Part shown: positions 17,904 through 24,980 of the stretch, one piece after another
Position numbering within the stretch: the first letter of the stretch is position 1
Layout of the letters: every line of letters starts with the position of its first letter
Assembly: GCA_007131755.1 (NCBI GenBank)
Contig: SLPW01000486.1
Span: forward strand, 1-32,085
Direction: 5' to 3'
DNA length: 32,085 nucleotides
DNA from: Myxococcales bacterium
GTDB taxonomy: Bacteria > Myxococcota_A > Bradymonadia > Bradymonadales > Bradymonadaceae
Position numbers and translations under genes: made by a program
Notes under the pieces: model-generated
What the model was told of the DNA's origin: nothing
Database searches by the model: none
The model's input: the letters and a program-made list of their open reading frames with translations, nothing else

Positions 17904-19271
17904 ATGACGACAGGCTTGTGGCGAGGATTGTTGGTGGGGTTGGCGGCCCTGGGGGCGGTGATGGTGTCCACTCCGGCTGTGGCGAGCGAGGAGGATGGAG
18001 AAAGTCTCCGGGTGGTGATCGCCAAGGTCTCCGACGGCAGTGACCAGGTCATCGAGCAGGCACTTCGCGATCTAGAGGGGCTCGAGTTTCGCTCCTACGA
18101 CTGGTTCGTCGACCAGGCTCGGTCTCGAGCCTTGAATCCGGAAGGAATACTGACGAATCCGTCGGATTTGATGTGGGCCATGGATGGCGGCGCGATCGGG
18201 CTGATCATCGATATCGTCGAAGAAGACGATCAGGATTACCGGGTGCGGTTCATCACCGATGAGGAGGCGGTGGCGGAGCACGAATTTCTGGCCGATCGTG
18301 GTCACGACGGAGCGATTCGCCGTGGGGGGGCGACGGTGATAAAGGTGGAATTGGAGCGGTTTTTGGGGCGCGACGCCGATCGGTGGACGGCGGCGATGGC
18401 GGCGGGACGAGAGGATTCGCAGCCCGCAGAGGAAGACGAAGAGAGCACGCAGGAGGTCGATCTCAGTGATCCACAGGCGATGCGGGATGCCGCTGCGGCC
18501 GATGATGAGGAGTTGCTTCAGATCTTGAGTCGGGACTGGCTGTGGTTGCGCGCTCATCTACGCATCTTTAACAAAGACGTGTCCGTGGCGGCGGAGAACG
18601 CCGTATTTACCCACAACTCCGGACAGTTTTTCGGCTACGAGTTGGACGTGGAGGCCTTTCCCTTCGGTCAATCGAATCCGGAGTTGATGGAGGCGGGCTT
18701 TTACGCCACCTTCAGTCATGGATTTTATGATATGACGGTCACCGATGTCTCCAATGGGGACGATCCGCAGTCCGTGGCGGTGTCGGTGACGAATTTGACC
18801 GTGGAAGGGGGAGCCCTCTATCGTCTCGACACGCCGCTGGAGGATAGTAACCGCCAGGTGCGGTTTAAGTTGGGCGGTCGATACGACAGCTACTCTTTGA
18901 CGGAGAATCCGGCGGTGCCAAATATGAGCATGATCTCGCTGGTGCTGGGAACACGGCTGGTGATGCCTGTAGCGACCGAGGAGTTTGCGGTGACGGCGGG
19001 ACTCGATATCTCGCCATTGGCCTTTTTTGGTGCCGGTTCGGACATCTTCGGGGCCGACTCGTTTAGCTTCGGATTCGGTTCGGAGTTGGGTGTGTTGGTG
19101 GAGGTGATGGACAACGGCTTTTTGTCAGCGGGCTATTCGTTTCGGCTCATGAGAAGCGACTTCAGTGACGCCGGGGAGCCGATTCACGAGGGAAGCGAGC
19201 TGGTGTTTAGCGATTCGGAGGTCTTCGATCTCAATCACGGGTTGCGCGCCGGGTTTGTGTACCAATACTAA
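17904..19271 (+). CDS. exported two-part protein with a probable C-terminal outer-membrane beta-barrel
   Basis: The 455-residue product starts with a signal peptide (hydrophobic core about residues 7-22, probable cleavage after AVA at 27). Residues of about 30-135 form a small alpha/beta-looking domain. Residues of about 140-180 are an acidic linker. From about residue 185 to the end, alternating hydrophobic/polar strands rich in Gly, Tyr and Phe suggest a beta-barrel, and the chain ends LRAGFVYQY with a terminal aromatic residue, as many outer-membrane proteins do. No named family is recognised. AGGA at 17893-17896 supports the ATG at 17904. It sits between a pilus ATPase and a PilZ-like protein, which suggests an envelope or motility role, but that is inference only. 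Confidence 0.75.
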   Translation: MTTGLWRGLLVGLAALGAVMVSTPAVASEEDGESLRVVIAKVSDGSDQVIEQALRDLEGLEFRSYDWFVDQARSRALNPEGILTNPSDLMWAMDGGAIGLIIDIVEEDDQDYRVRFITDEEAVAEHEFLADRGHDGAIRRGGATVIKVELERFLGRDADRWTAAMAAGREDSQPAEEDEESTQEVDLSDPQAMRDAAAADDEELLQILSRDWLWLRAHLRIFNKDVSVAAENAVFTHNSGQFFGYELDVEAFPFGQSNPELMEAGFYATFSHGFYDMTVTDVSNGDDPQSVAVSVTNLTVEGGALYRLDTPLEDSNRQVRFKLGGRYDSYSLTENPAVPNMSMISLVLGTRLVMPVATEEFAVTAGLDISPLAFFGAGSDIFGADSFSFGFGSELGVLVEVMDNGFLSAGYSFRLMRSDFSDAGEPIHEGSELVFSDSEVFDLNHGLRAGFVYQY

Positions 19272-19323
19272 TACGTCGCCCACCAGGGGCGGCGCATCAA
19301 TCAGTAACACGAGAGGACGTCAG

Positions 19324-21177
19324 GTGTCGGATCCAAACTACTCAGCAATACGGGCCCGCCTTCGGTACGAGAATGTCGAAGAGTTCGTCGACAGCTACGG
19401 CCGCTATATTTCGCGGCGCGGAATGTTCTTGCCGATGGCAGCGAGCAAATTGAAGCCGGTGGGCACAACGGTTCGCTTTCAGTTGCTGTTGGCCGACGGG
19501 ACATCGGCGATGCTCGGTGAAGGGGTGGTGCGCAAATTGAAGGGGTTGGACGACGCCTCCACGGACGGTCCGGTGGGGATGTTGGTGAAATTCTCCAAAC
19601 TCAGTCCGGACTCCAAGAAGCTTGTCGACCGGGTGGTCAAGGAGAAGGAGGAGGCGAAGAGAACGATTCGTCAAACGCAGCCTACACCGGGCGGGCAACC
19701 GGCGGTGACGGCCGAGGCTGCGAGCAGTGCGACCACGGGAGTCCTGGCAGCGGAACAAGCCGATCAGTTGGTCAGTGAGGCCGGTTCCGATTCTGAGGCA
19801 TCACTGGCAGAGACCAATCAACCCGATCATGGTCCGAGGACCCGCGAAGTGGAGCTTCCCGTTGATGACGAGTCAGACACCATGACCTCAGGCGATGAGG
19901 TCTTCGGCGGCGCGACGTCACAGGCCGCTGTCGACGGTGACCCGGCTGAGGCAGTAGCGGAGGCGCTGGACAGCGGTACCTACGAAGCGGCGGCGCAGTC
20001 GACTCCGTCCGTGAGCGCAGAGACACTGCAAGAAGAGAGCGATCCCTTTGCGGGATTGGCAGATGAAATGCTGGAGGGATTCAATCAATCTTCTCAGGAG
20101 CAAGAGTCGGACTACCTGGGTGGAAGTGCTGATGAACTGGAGGACGATGCAGATTTTTTCTCCGAGCCGCAGGAACCCGCCGGCGATGAAGGTGCTGCGT
20201 CTGAGGAGGACGTCGCCTCCGGTGGCGCCGATGGCGATCTTCAGCAGTCACAGGAAGAAGCAAAGGAGGCCCACGAACCGAAGGCGCTCGCGCAGTCTGA
20301 AGGTGGCCTGAAGGTGATGGCCTACGACGAGTCGGACTACGATGAAGCGGCCACCCGAGATTTCGAACAATTCGCCCTTGCTGGTGAAGAGGGCGAGGTG
20401 GACGAGATGTTCGACAATATCTTCGGCGGTGGAGGGGACGACGGTCTCTTCGGAGGCGGCGGGGGTGATGACGACGGGATAGACGATTTCTTCGGCGCTG
20501 AAAGTGACGGGGCAGCCGAAGAACCGGGATCTGAGGATGTCGAAGAGGAGAGCGAAGCAGGCCTGGAAGTGGACAGTGAATTTGTGGCCGAAGAAGAGGA
20601 GGTCGCGCAGGTGGGGCCACCGCCGGCTGCCGAAGCTCAGGAGGCATCTGACGAGGAAGGCCCGGATATTCCTGGCGATGAGGAAGCACAGAAGGACTCG
20701 GACCTCGATCTGGCCGATGACGATGGCGACGAGGAGTGGGGCTGGACTTCCGAAGAGGACGACGATGACGACGAGGTGGAGGATTCGATCTCGATTCGGG
20801 AGGTCGAAGGCGACTCCACTGACCATATCCAATCGCTATTGTCCATGGATGACGAGGATGACGATGAGGAGCCAGAGCTGACCCTGAATATCGGCGGAGG
20901 AACCCTTCAGGAAGAATCTTCGGAGGTAGAGGACGAGCCCGATCCAGACGACAGCATGGAGATGCTGTTGGCGACGGCGAAGCAGGACCTGGAGAGCAAG
21001 AAGGAAGCGGAGACGGAAGAGGATGACGACCGCGATATCCTCGATGAACTCCTCGGTGAGGACGATGACCTCCCGCCGCCGATAGCCGGTCCCGTGCCGC
21101 TGGATCTTCCCGATCCGGGCCAGTCCAAGAAGAAGAAAAAGGGCTTTATCTCCAAATTCTTCGGCGGAGATGACTGA
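19324..21177 (+). CDS. PilZ-like domain protein with a very long acidic disordered tail
   Basis: The GTG at 19324 follows GAGAGGA (19311-19317) with good spacing, giving 617 residues; longer open sequence upstream overlaps the previous gene and looks non-native. Residues of about 5-105 resemble the atypical PilZ domain common in myxobacterial paralogues (YISRRGMFLP, then ADGTSAMLGEGVVRKL and PVGMLVKFSKLSPDSKKL). The canonical (D/N)xSxxG motif is partly kept (S30, G33), but Y28 replaces the Asp/Asn, so c-di-GMP binding is uncertain. Residues of about 110-600 are low-complexity and dominated by Glu, Asp, Ser and Ala. The last residues switch to a basic amphipathic end (KKKKKGFISKFFGG). The design suggests a scaffold with one folded domain and a membrane- or partner-binding tail. 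The gene starts 52 nt after the outer-membrane-like protein gene. Confidence 0.85.
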   Translation: MSDPNYSAIRARLRYENVEEFVDSYGRYISRRGMFLPMAASKLKPVGTTVRFQLLLADGTSAMLGEGVVRKLKGLDDASTDGPVGMLVKFSKLSPDSKKLVDRVVKEKEEAKRTIRQTQPTPGGQPAVTAEAASSATTGVLAAEQADQLVSEAGSDSEASLAETNQPDHGPRTREVELPVDDESDTMTSGDEVFGGATSQAAVDGDPAEAVAEALDSGTYEAAAQSTPSVSAETLQEESDPFAGLADEMLEGFNQSSQEQESDYLGGSADELEDDADFFSEPQEPAGDEGAASEEDVASGGADGDLQQSQEEAKEAHEPKALAQSEGGLKVMAYDESDYDEAATRDFEQFALAGEEGEVDEMFDNIFGGGGDDGLFGGGGGDDDGIDDFFGAESDGAAEEPGSEDVEEESEAGLEVDSEFVAEEEEVAQVGPPPAAEAQEASDEEGPDIPGDEEAQKDSDLDLADDDGDEEWGWTSEEDDDDDEVEDSISIREVEGDSTDHIQSLLSMDDEDDDEEPELTLNIGGGTLQEESSEVEDEPDPDDSMEMLLATAKQDLESKKEAETEEDDDRDILDELLGEDDDLPPPIAGPVPLDLPDPGQSKKKKKGFISKFFGGDD

Positions 21178-21316: not shown

Positions 21317-21472
21317 ATGCTGTACTCCATCGACGATCCCCGGAGAGACCCGCCGCGTCTGTCTGCCGGCATTCGGGCCGTCCTGGTGATCACCTTTTTA
21401 TTGGCGGTAATCGTGGCCGCTCTGTACTTCCTCGACCGCTTCGCAGGGGTGGCGATGGTGTTGGGGGGATAA
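21317..21472 (+). CDS. 51-residue single-pass membrane protein
   Basis: The ATG at 21317 follows a strong ribosome site (AAGGAGG, 21305-21311) with 5-nt spacing. The product has a charged N-terminus with several Asp, Arg and Pro (residues 1-20), then one hydrophobic helix (about residues 21-43, IRAVLVITFLLAVIVAALYF), then a short Gly-rich end. An upstream in-frame ATG at 21254 lacks a comparable ribosome site. No homologue is recognised. The good translation signal and clean membrane helix argue that it is real. Confidence 0.6.
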   Translation: MLYSIDDPRRDPPRLSAGIRAVLVITFLLAVIVAALYFLDRFAGVAMVLGG

Positions 21473-21529
21473 GCGATATCCATACCCCGAGGTCGTGTAA
21501 AGCCAATGATCGCGCCGTTTGAGAGGGAT

Positions 21530-21550
21530 ATCGATCGAGGATCGATCGAT
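21530..21550. promoter_or_regulatory. GATC-rich palindrome upstream of the methyltransferase gene
   Basis: ATCGATCGA (21530-21538) and TCGATCGAT (21542-21550) are perfect inverted repeats around a 3-nt centre. Three overlapping or adjacent GATC sites lie inside, with others at 21508 and 21585. This could be an operator or a methylation-sensitive switch for the downstream gene. Both the function and the methyltransferase specificity are inferred. Confidence 0.4.
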
Positions 21551-21632
21551 TAAGGGGGCTCAAATGGGTTGACAGCTTGACACCGATCGTGGGGAAGCTT
21601 AGCCTCGACTCGACCTTGATCAGAGATACGGA

Positions 21633-21683
21633 CCCGTCAAAAAAGCGAGGCAGTCCCCACGGATGGGGAAGCGAGACGACGGG
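21633..21683. other. nested inverted repeat in the methyltransferase upstream region
   Basis: The outer arms are CCCGTC (21633-21638) and GACGGG (21678-21683). The inner arms are CCCCA (21655-21659) and TGGGG (21664-21668) with a 4-nt loop. A run of six As sits inside the left arm, so on the minus strand a T-tract follows the inner hairpin. It may be a minus-strand terminator or a structured leader of the methyltransferase mRNA. Confidence 0.3.
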
Positions 21684-21868
21684 AGCCATCGCTGAGAGGA
21701 TTTCCGTTGGAAGCGTCCTTACCGGCGCCGACGATGGATGCTGAGCAGCACCTGTCCGGGCGCTGTGACGGCGAAGACAGGGATGTATTTTCGCAACTGG
21801 CCACGGATGGCCCACTTCAGACTCCGCGCTTTGAGGAGTCATGAGGTGCGACACGACAGGGATGTCAT

Positions 21869-22684
21869 ATGGAAGCGACGAAGTTGGAAGCACGCACGTT
21901 CGACCGAAAACCCTATTATAAAGACCAGCGGGGATTTACCCTCTTTCAGGGGGATTCTCTCCAATTGTTGGCCGAGATGGAGTCGGAGCAATTCGACATG
22001 ATCTTTGCCGATCCTCCCTATTTTCTGTCCAACGACGGTGTCACCTGTAAGTCGGGCAGAATGGTATCGGTCAACAAAGGCCGATGGGACAAGTCGAAAG
22101 GGGTGGAGAATAATCACGCCTTCAACCTGCAGTGGCTCGAGCAATGTCAGCGTCTGTTGAAGCCCAATGGGACGATCTGGGTCAGCGGGACCTTCCACGT
22201 TGTCTTCTCGCTGGGCTTCGCGATGCAGCAGTTGGATTATAAGATCTTGAACGATATCTCTTGGTTCAAGGTCAATCCACCGCCGAATCTGTCGTGTCGC
22301 TACTTCACGCACAGCACGGAGACGGTGATCTGGGCGGCGAAGAACAAGGACAGCCGTTATACCTTCAATTATAAGAAGATGAAGGAGATGAACGGCGGCA
22401 AGCAGATGAAAAGCCTGTGGCATATCATGTCGCCGCGAAAGGCGGAGAAGAAGCACGGCAAGCACCCGACGCAAAAGCCCATCAAGCTGATGAACCGGAT
22501 CGTTTTGGCGGCCTCCGATCCAGGCGATCGCATCCTCGATCCCTTCTGCGGATCGTCGACGACGGGACTGGCGGCGGTGGATCAGGGACGGCAATTCGTG
22601 GGAATCGATCAGAGCGAGGAATATCTCGATCTGTCCATCAAGCGCTTTGAGGACCTGGTCGCCGAGGGAGCAGAACAGGAATGA
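21869..22684 (+). CDS. beta-class DNA adenine methyltransferase, DpnA (M.DpnIIB)-like
   Basis: The 271-residue protein has the amino-methyltransferase motifs in beta-class order: catalytic motif IV DPPY (48-51, in FADPPYFLSN) comes before SAM-binding motif I DPFCGSSTTG (224-233, then GRQFVGIDQSEEY). The stretches SVNKGRWDKSKG, NLSCRYFTHSTET and GKHPTQKP closely resemble the pneumococcal GATC methyltransferase DpnA as I recall it, so N6-adenine methylation of GATC is the most likely activity. DpnA also modifies single-stranded DNA during transformation. No restriction endonuclease is adjacent, so this is probably a solitary enzyme. The ATG at 21869 follows AGGGAT with moderate spacing. A strong hairpin separates it from the helicase gene downstream. 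Confidence 0.93.
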   Translation: MEATKLEARTFDRKPYYKDQRGFTLFQGDSLQLLAEMESEQFDMIFADPPYFLSNDGVTCKSGRMVSVNKGRWDKSKGVENNHAFNLQWLEQCQRLLKPNGTIWVSGTFHVVFSLGFAMQQLDYKILNDISWFKVNPPPNLSCRYFTHSTETVIWAAKNKDSRYTFNYKKMKEMNGGKQMKSLWHIMSPRKAEKKHGKHPTQKPIKLMNRIVLAASDPGDRILDPFCGSSTTGLAAVDQGRQFVGIDQSEEYLDLSIKRFEDLVAEGAEQE

Positions 22685-22716
22685 TCCTCCGTTCTTCGCA
22701 GTTGGAAGCAGGGAAG

Positions 22717-22749
22717 CGGCCGTACTCGCCAGGAGGGCGAGTGCGGTCG
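22717..22749 (+). terminator. 14-bp hairpin between methyltransferase and helicase genes
   Basis: Bases 22717-22730 pair with 22736-22749 around a 5-nt loop (AGGAG). All 14 pairs form, with two G-T wobbles (22719/22747 and 22723/22743). There is no T-tract downstream. This is one of the strongest hairpins in the window. It could end the methyltransferase transcript or protect and expose mRNA ends. Confidence 0.45.
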
Positions 22750-22823
22750 TCGCCGTTGTGGCTTGTGGTTCAGAATGCGACAGTGGGCCGACGGCACCGA
22801 GAATCGAAGATCGAGGACATACC

Positions 22824-24980
22824 ATGGTATATCGCGGATTGAAGCTCGATCCTTTCCAGCGCCAGGCGATGGATTATATCGAGGAGGGAAAGAGCGTACT
22901 CGTGGCGGCGCCCACGGGGACGGGCAAGACACTGATCGCCGACTACCTCATCGAGGAGGTGCTCGAAGAAGGCGGGGAGGTGGTGTATACGGCGCCGGTC
23001 AAGGCGTTGTCCAATCAGAAGTATCGCGAATATTGCAGCTATTTCGGCCGCGACAAGGTGGGGCTTGTAACGGGGGACCTGGTGATCAACCGGGACGCGC
23101 CGATTCGAATCATGACCACCGAGATTTTGCGCAACATCCTGTTGGAGGGACCGCGGCTGATGGCCGAACAGGAACAGACGCCACAGGACGTCGATGAAAA
23201 GACCGGGCTAGATATCGATGTCTTTTCGCCTTCCGACGTGGTGCTTCCGGACCTGGAGGAGTTGGAGGCGGTGATCATCGACGAGATTCACTTTCTGGAC
23301 GATGAGGACCGGGGGACGGTGTGGGAGGAGTTGTTGATTTATCTTCCCTCGAGCATTCGGATCCTGGGGCTTTCGGCGACGCTGTCGAATCTGGAGGAAT
23401 TCGCGGACTGGTTGACTCAGATCCGGGAGGCGCAGGTGGAGGTGGTGCTGGAGACGGAGCGGGCGGTGCCGCTGGAGTTGAGGGTTGCCTGCAAAGAGAT
23501 CGGAAGCCTGGTGGACACCGGAACCTTCGAGAAGCAATACGGCCGCTGGAAGAGCGGGCAGCAGGGAAAAAAGAAGAAAAAGAACAACCGGCGAGGCGGG
23601 ATGACGCGTCACGTCGACATTCTGCGCATGATGAGCAGCGACCATTATCCGGCGCTGTACTTCATCTACAGTCGAAGGATGGTGGAGATGCTGGCCCGAA
23701 AGCTGGCCCGCCATCCCCTGGGGAGGAGGCTCAACGGGAAAAAGGACACCCGTCAGATCGACGATCATCTGCGTCGCTTCGAAGAGGAGTTTCCGGGGGT
23801 GCTGACGCGAGATCTGCGCAAGATGTATCGAAAGGGAATTGCCTTTCACCACGCCGGGCTTCACGTGGCGCTGAAGGCGCTGGTCGAGGAGTTATACGAG
23901 TCCAAATTGCTCAAGATCCTGTACTGCACCTCTACCTTTGCGCTGGGCATCAATATGCCGGCTCGAACGGTGATCTTCGACGCGTTGACGAAGTTCAATG
24001 GTACGGACTTCGTGCCACTTACCATTCGGGAATTCATGCAGATGGCCGGCCGCTCCGGGCGTCGAGGCATCGACGAGGTGGGGACGGTGGTGATTCGGCA
24101 GGACTTCGAGCACTTCCACGAGGTTCGCCCTCTTCTCCACAAATTGTTGACCGAGGAGAGCGAGCCGGTGACGTCGTCGTTCAATCTCTCCTACCACTCG
24201 GTGGTCAATCTGGTGGAGCGCTTCGATGAGGTGCAGATTCGCTACATGCTCGACCAGAGCTTCAGGGCCTATCAAGACGAGCAGATGGCCGGTGTGGTGG
24301 AAGATCGCATCGAGGAATTGATGGATAAAGGAGGCACAGACAACCGGGAGAAGCGAAGGAGGTTGGCTGCATTGCGCCGTGAGTTGGCTTATCTGGAGCG
24401 GCCACGGCTGTGGGAGGCCTTCTCGCGTAAGGTGGCTCTCTTGAAGCGCCATGGATATCTGGGCGACGATAATTGCCTCAACGCGCCGGCGAAGGTGTTG
24501 AGCCATATTAAGATCGAGGAGATCTTCGTCACGGAGTTGTTGATGAAAGGAGTGTTCGAAGATCGAACTCCAGAGGAGTTGTTCGGCATCATGGTGGGGC
24601 TTGTGCAGAGGTTGCCCAGGAAGGCGAAGGTCTTTTATCCGGAGGACGACAAATGGTTCGCCATCTTCGATCGAGTAGAGAAGGTCTATGAGAGCCAGAT
24701 CGTGCAGGAGGCCCAGGAGTTGGTAGACCAGGAGACGGTGTATACACCGGAGTTGATGCCCCTTGGCGAGCGGTGGGCGAAGGGAGAAGAGCTGGCTTCG
24801 ATACTACGAGACATCAAGAGTCGCACCGATCTGTCCGGCGATCTGGTGGGCGGTTTTCGCCGCGCCAAGGACCTGGTCAGCCAGATTCGACAGGTCCATC
24901 ACAGAGACGAGGCGCGATGGAAGGCGTTGACGACCCTGTTGCGCCAGGTCACTCGCGATGAAGTGCAGGTGCTGGATTGA
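22824..24980 (+). CDS. Ski2-like superfamily 2 helicase
   Basis: The 718-residue protein has the Ski2/Mtr4/HelY helicase motifs in order: Q-like FQRQAMDYI, Walker A APTGTGKT (29-36), the DEIH box (D153-H156) in place of the DEVH of yeast Ski2, motif III LSATLSN, FHHAGLH, GINMPARTVIFD and motif VI QMAGRSGRRG from residue 406. The C-terminal third is helical and resembles the DSHCT domain (GDLVGGFRRAKDLVSQI). The chain is shorter than Mtr4 or actinobacterial HelY, and I see no arch domain. A basic patch (KKKKKNNRR) sits between the RecA-like lobes. ATP-driven unwinding of RNA or RNA-DNA structure is expected; the substrate is unknown. ATG 22824 is chosen because GAGGA (22813-22817) precedes it; the upstream open sequence has no homology-like character. 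It converges with htrA across 4 nt. Confidence 0.9.
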   Translation: MVYRGLKLDPFQRQAMDYIEEGKSVLVAAPTGTGKTLIADYLIEEVLEEGGEVVYTAPVKALSNQKYREYCSYFGRDKVGLVTGDLVINRDAPIRIMTTEILRNILLEGPRLMAEQEQTPQDVDEKTGLDIDVFSPSDVVLPDLEELEAVIIDEIHFLDDEDRGTVWEELLIYLPSSIRILGLSATLSNLEEFADWLTQIREAQVEVVLETERAVPLELRVACKEIGSLVDTGTFEKQYGRWKSGQQGKKKKKNNRRGGMTRHVDILRMMSSDHYPALYFIYSRRMVEMLARKLARHPLGRRLNGKKDTRQIDDHLRRFEEEFPGVLTRDLRKMYRKGIAFHHAGLHVALKALVEELYESKLLKILYCTSTFALGINMPARTVIFDALTKFNGTDFVPLTIREFMQMAGRSGRRGIDEVGTVVIRQDFEHFHEVRPLLHKLLTEESEPVTSSFNLSYHSVVNLVERFDEVQIRYMLDQSFRAYQDEQMAGVVEDRIEELMDKGGTDNREKRRRLAALRRELAYLERPRLWEAFSRKVALLKRHGYLGDDNCLNAPAKVLSHIKIEEIFVTELLMKGVFEDRTPEELFGIMVGLVQRLPRKAKVFYPEDDKWFAIFDRVEKVYESQIVQEAQELVDQETVYTPELMPLGERWAKGEELASILRDIKSRTDLSGDLVGGFRRAKDLVSQIRQVHHRDEARWKALTTLLRQVTRDEVQVLD

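Follow-up and report, generated by a model that had tools for sequence, protein, structure and literature searches.

GATC sites at the putative promoter of an orphan Dam-like methyltransferase gene in Bradymonadales: a candidate for methylation feedback and CsrA control

Introduction

Does a group of GATC sites in front of a gene for a putative GATC methyltransferase form a switch through which the enzyme sets its own level, or is it an accident of sequence composition? The question arises from a 32-kb window (32,085 nt, the whole stretch of DNA that was analysed) of a 5.6-Mb metagenome-assembled genome from Bradymonadales, an order of halophilic bacteria in which the members brought into culture are predatory. 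The textbook picture of GATC epigenetics is drawn from a part of the Gammaproteobacteria, with Dam, SeqA and MutH as its players, and discussions of MutH usually treat it as a trait found in some members of that class. Here we analysed the GATC sites, the gene behind them, its orthologues and its mRNA leader.

Results

GATC density within the genome

Analysis of the window bore out the first-pass annotation in its counts. The five GATC sites that it had placed within about 80 nt start at 21508, 21533, 21540, 21544 and 21585, all within 21508–21588, and the 21-nt palindrome that it had credited with three of them is an inverted repeat, ATCGATCGA-GGA-TCGATCGAT, at 21530..21550 (unstranded), with 9-bp arms, a 3-bp centre and three GATC. 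The repeat occurs as a single copy in the whole genome, which rules out a repeated genomic element, and CGATCG showed no over-representation.

The local density, from which a switch had been suspected, proved to be ordinary here. The window carries 301 GATC in 32 kb versus 285 ± 15 in shuffles, a cluster of five in 81 nt arises in 44–65% of Markov-simulated windows of matching composition, the methyltransferase gene itself contains a denser cluster (five in 57 bp, 22498–22554), and seven clusters of the 5-in-81 type were found in about 180 kb sampled from the same genome. Density alone was therefore rejected as evidence, since chance accounts for the cluster in this genome. The wider reading that the cluster is nothing but chance in a GATC-rich genome agrees with its lack of significance when this genome is taken alone, but the enrichment and its position are both conserved over 17 genera, relatives poorer in GATC among them. 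Judged by this sequence comparison, chance is refuted as a full account, and we regard it as highly improbable.

GATC conservation upstream of the orthologues

The comparison covered the 400 bp before the start codon at 21 orthologous loci, each oriented by strand. These regions hold 190 GATC, where dinucleotide shuffles predict 71.3 (z = 16.8); the figures do not represent independent draws, as the 21 orthologues are kin. The runner-up among the 16 palindromic tetramers was GGCC (z = 5.5), whose excess probably comes from the leader hairpins described below. GATC density reaches 22.8 per kb in the upstream 400 bp versus 6.8 per kb elsewhere in the same loci. G011 and G014 are finished genomes with 4.9 and 4.7 GATC per kb; in each of them the upstream cluster is the sole non-repetitive one at its density in 400 kb, and the other clusters of matching density are low-complexity repeats (background rates in this study come from samples of 180–400 kb per genome). 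Simple repeats of the form (GATCGT)n, forming a large inverted repeat, were also seen in a Persicimonas-like genome at L101:8384-8490.

The individual GATC sites turn over among the orthologues, while density and position stay. Compared with loci L004–L006, the repeat at 21530–21550 is a degenerate form of the dyad kept there, GATCGATC-N7-GATCGATC, whose lasting core consists of two GATC 11 bp apart. The 21-nt palindrome as written is not what is conserved, and the most conserved site, 21585, lies outside it.

The long dyad in L004–L006 looks like the operator of a dimer, and this gives rise to the main rival explanation, a methylation-blind operator, in which the GATC sites form part of a binding site for a DNA-binding regulator and methylation has no role. 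A plain operator would, however, keep its flanks and not gain extra copies, whereas only GATC itself is kept: the flanking bases vary freely, with all 16 combinations present, the sites turn over at high density, and L018–L022 retain 6–22 upstream GATC without the dyad. In addition, the predicted target of the downstream enzyme is the identical word, GATC. We therefore consider this operator reading unlikely, though it is the strongest of the alternatives.

Promoter architecture

Conservation among the orthologues points to a promoter of the methyltransferase gene inside the GATC-rich region. Its -35 box, TTGACA at 21577..21582 (+ strand), belongs to a conserved TTGAC-GATC arrangement and is followed, after a 17-nt spacer, by a putative weak -10 box, TAGCCT at 21600..21605 (+ strand), inferred from conservation and matching TAnnnT in most relatives. 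A simple sigma-70 consensus scan missed this promoter. In 19 of 20 aligned promoters a GATC starts at +6 to +12 from the first T of the -35 box, most commonly at +8; the alignment anchors were picked partly for a nearby GATC, and hence an additional count was made without selection. In this count over the 400-bp upstream regions, 18 of 21 orthologues, from 14 of 17 genera, have a TTGAC with a GATC at most six bases behind it, compared with TTGAC-N1-6-GATC in 0.5–0.8% of background 400-bp windows. Counted by box, 20 of the 28 upstream TTGAC have a GATC no more than six bases on, as do 2.5–4.7% of TTGAC in the background. The exact motif is missing from L013, L014 and L018; L018 carries CTGACA-cgc-GATC, and no promoter could be recognised in L014. 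The upstream cluster has disappeared from L016 and L017, and in L016, a GATC-poor locus (3.5 per kb), the sole GATC in 400 bp is the one in the promoter spacer.

Relative to this putative promoter, the GATC sites (all unstranded) take up recurring positions. The most conserved, 21585..21588, sits in the spacer just past the -35 box. The sites at 21533 and 21544 form a pair with a spacing of exactly 11 bp (21533..21547), at -44 and -33 from the -35 box. L002 and L004–L012 likewise have a pair with this spacing ahead of the -35 box (L003 is cut by a contig end), one to three helical turns away in the relatives. A sixth GATC at 21618..21621, +41 from the -35 box, falls just downstream of the inferred transcription start, with counterparts at +37 to +41 in L004, L005, L007, L009–L013 and L015. 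The site at 21508..21511 is 69 bp upstream of the -35 box. A 51-aa open reading frame with one apparent transmembrane stretch (21317–21472) lies just upstream of the GATC sites. The earlier proposal of a methylation-sensitive switch candidate in this upstream region gains support from GATC kept at fixed promoter positions across orthologues; the region would act as a promoter, and its sites may be methylated.

Identity and predicted specificity of the methyltransferase

The gene at 21869..22684 (+ strand) encodes an orphan beta-class N6-adenine methyltransferase of 271 aa, of M2/DpnA type and with predicted GATC specificity. The protein matches PF01555 (E = 2.5e-57) and shows the motifs of the beta class: DPPY is invariant, within an ADPPYFLSN stretch invariant in 24 of 24 aligned sequences, and DPFxGSxTTG is present in all of them. 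It shares 54% identity over 248 aa with M2 of the Lactococcus plasmid pSRQ700, whose gene sits between a D12 methyltransferase gene and that of the DpnII nuclease (PF04556). Homologues in Bacteroidales were found beside DpnII at the two loci tested, with a D12 methyltransferase also present in the one checked, and these loci avoid GATC (0.4–0.75 per kb). The identity to pSRQ700 M2 and the DpnII genes beside the Bacteroidales homologues favour the first-pass assignment as a GATC methyltransferase, and GATC is accordingly the specificity predicted here.

The best-scoring solved structure was CcrM (6pbd), with an alignment ending at residue 261 of 366. Membership of the CcrM family was ruled out, because the C-terminal specificity domain is missing and the protein has 271 aa versus about 360 aa. 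The score against NCBIfam NF050803 was 239.7 bits versus a cut-off of 830. A phage or plasmid origin was dismissed. Phage matches stay below 60% identity and the near-full-length ones are at about 30%, plasmid matches reach 54.5%, and there is synteny: a Ski2-like DEAD/DSHCT helicase gene lies directly downstream (22647–24980) and adjoins the methyltransferase gene in 10 further orthologous loci, which argues for a chromosomal core gene. Downstream of a pilT-family gene, the frame at 19165–21177 encodes a 670-aa protein that has a long acidic tail and is rich in lysine at its end; its match to TIGR02266 (PilZ-like paralog domain) is below the cut-off.

Distribution in Bradymonadales and partner genes

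The methyltransferase gene is present as a single copy in 21 of 26 Bradymonadales genomes and in 13 of the 13 best assembled. The sample of the class outside the order yielded no orthologue of comparable identity, only a split copy at 55% in G048. No DpnII nuclease (PF04556) was found in the 26 genomes, and a remnant of a DpnII-type restriction-modification system was rejected on this ground. A Dam-type D12 gene was likewise absent from 21 of the 26. The genome studied here does encode a D12 enzyme, right after prfA (L053:1432-2337, G000:C112), which scores 183 bits against a Dam-family model, and PF02086 also occurs in two other genomes of its genus, one other genome of family f1 and one of f2. 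This Dam-family enzyme may also methylate GATC, so that two enzymes may share the task in the genus.

MutH is encoded in 13 of the 26 genomes. Three examples tested passed the cut-offs of the two MutH equivalog models and fell far short of the Sau3AI one; that of the genome studied here reached 277.5 bits in the equivalog model versus a cut-off of 243 and matches E. coli MutH structures along its length. True MutH proteins are encoded at L127:6041-6712, L134:4687-5361 and L128:4758-5585, with the L134 copy adjoining apaH. Across the phylum, PF02976 (MutH) matches were found in 74 of 189 sampled genomes. Since most of the MutH-bearing Bradymonadales genomes have no Dam-type gene, the methyltransferase described here would be the natural supplier of GATC marks. 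True MutH and a predicted GATC methyltransferase thus appear to co-occur as in Dam-MutH methyl-directed mismatch repair. Half of the genomes are without MutH, and GATC methylation is therefore not tied to repair everywhere.

These distributions bear on two further readings of the upstream region. Switches of the pap and agn43 type have GATC clusters beside the promoter, and three to five GATC beside the putative promoter, two of them 11 bp apart, resemble them. The region could accordingly form a positive or bistable epigenetic switch, in which methylation favours transcription or blocks a repressor and yields ON and OFF cells. The sign of the feedback is not readable from sequence; universal single-copy conservation and MutH in many genomes suggest steady housekeeping methylation and not phase variation. 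We rate the bistable switch as improbable, just behind the operator. The other reading is that the region is a replication origin or a SeqA-type sequestration site and not a promoter element. Dense GATC with helical spacing is a feature of E. coli oriC, which the locus recalls, and L006 contains one perfect DnaA box. On the other hand, the other 20 upstream regions have no DnaA box, none of the 26 genomes encodes SeqA, and the GC skew climbs steadily through the window with no turn. On these three grounds we rejected an origin or SeqA site, to which we assign only a very slight chance.

CsrA-type hairpins in the mRNA leader

SELEX gives RUACARGGAUGU as the CsrA consensus and places GGA in a loop of six bases (PMC7652899). 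Analysis of the leader of the methyltransferase mRNA revealed several elements of this kind, all on the + strand. A hairpin CCCC[ACGGAT]GGGG at 21655..21668 is present in the predicted fold, and a match to the SELEX core ACARGGAUGU, ACAGGGATGT at 21776..21786, is without a 3-bp stem. A further hairpin, GGCC[ACGGAT]GGCC at 21799..21812, lies about 60 nt before the start codon; its 14-mer is unique within 180 kb sampled from the same genome, and GGCC[A(C/A)GGAT]GGCC is found in 12 of 16 family f1 orthologues. The second CsrA-type site, the hairpin GAC[AGGGAT]GTC at 21855..21866, covers the Shine-Dalgarno sequence and leaves two bases between itself and the ATG. It is the only place at which ACARGGAWGTC occurs in about 360 kb of strand sampled from the same genome, and the same hairpin precedes the ATG in most f1 orthologues. 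In the last 300 nt before the orthologue starts, stems of 4 bp or more enclose 22 of 60 ANGGAW, compared with a background of 2.2–3.6%.

The leader is mildly more stable than its shuffles (z = -1.6). In its best predicted fold, the two GGA hairpins with long stems are formed and the Shine-Dalgarno one is not. An Rfam search of the window returned no match, which places the leader in no known RNA family. Of the 26 genomes, 24 encode CsrA, among them 13 of the 13 best. Taken from these motifs, CsrA may bind the leader.

Discussion

Proposed mechanism

The gene family, its single-copy conservation, the GATC positions, the hairpins, the presence of CsrA and the absence of DpnII and SeqA are computed observations. 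The reading that we favour, and hold to be rather probable, is that the GATC sites belong to the promoter of a Dam-like orphan methyltransferase gene, which would be subject to methylation feedback on its own promoter and to translational control by CsrA. In this model, the enzyme would methylate GATC at its own promoter, at 21585 in the spacer, 21618 near the start and 21533/21544 upstream. Full methylation would lower the binding of RNA polymerase or of an activator, resulting in negative feedback, and replication would leave the promoter GATC hemimethylated, allowing a pulse of transcription. A negative sign, together with the pulse after replication, is favoured in view of the housekeeping behaviour of the gene. 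In the mRNA, a CsrA dimer would bridge the Shine-Dalgarno hairpin and the hairpin about 60 nt upstream, blocking translation as for glgC.

A broader proposal, which we offer tentatively and with less than even confidence, is an independently built Dam system. An enzyme derived from restriction-modification would have become the GATC maintainer of the order, partly together with MutH, timed through its promoter without SeqA and tied by CsrA to the metabolic or predatory state. Another lineage thus appears to maintain GATC methylation through an enzyme other than Dam, with MutH in half of its genomes, no SeqA and a promoter that is itself crowded with the predicted target. The order would also provide a culturable setting in which to study self-regulation of a maintenance methyltransferase, and it may connect CsrA to the epigenome. 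SMRT libraries have been made for Bradymonas sediminis FA350 and Persicimonas caeni YN101 (PMC7460792), and B. sediminis, with a finished genome and PacBio data generated, is hence a clean test case.

Comparison with known systems

Self-methylated methyltransferase promoters are known already. For CfrBI, control of the own promoter by methylation is an established finding, and there are reports of it for AhdI and LlaDII (PMC12707154). As at the present locus, the target site of these enzymes lies in the promoter of their own gene; however, they are restriction-modification systems, whereas here the gene is an orphan found order-wide, and the 400 bp before it can contain as many as 22 sites.

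CcrM of Caulobacter is likewise an orphan beta-class adenine methyltransferase of one lineage with its own target in the promoter; ccrM is most probably regulated by methylation (PMC3973325) and is described as transcribed from hemimethylated DNA (PMC2217572). The CcrM target is GANTC and that predicted here is GATC; in contrast to CcrM, the present enzyme has no C-terminal domain, and its gene has many more sites, a CsrA-type leader and MutH in half of the genomes. The M2/DpnA enzymes of DpnII/LlaII systems (pSRQ700) are similar over their whole length at 54% identity and share the motifs, but in Bradymonadales the DpnII nuclease is missing, as in most cases is the M1 Dam-type partner, and GATC is not avoided.

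The leader resembles that of glgC, which has one CsrA hairpin site and one Shine-Dalgarno site (PMC7652899), in combining an upstream GGA hairpin with a site over the Shine-Dalgarno sequence; unlike glgC, the gene here encodes a DNA methyltransferase. A limited search of open-access text found no report of CsrA control of a DNA methyltransferase, and none of a self-methylated promoter for an orphan, order-core M2/DpnA-type enzyme found with MutH and linked to CsrA. Finally, the Dam-MutH pair of Gammaproteobacteria has in common with Bradymonadales a GATC methyltransferase, here predicted, and a true MutH. It differs in that the Bradymonadales enzyme is a non-orthologous one of the beta class, accompanied by no SeqA and by MutH in part of the order.
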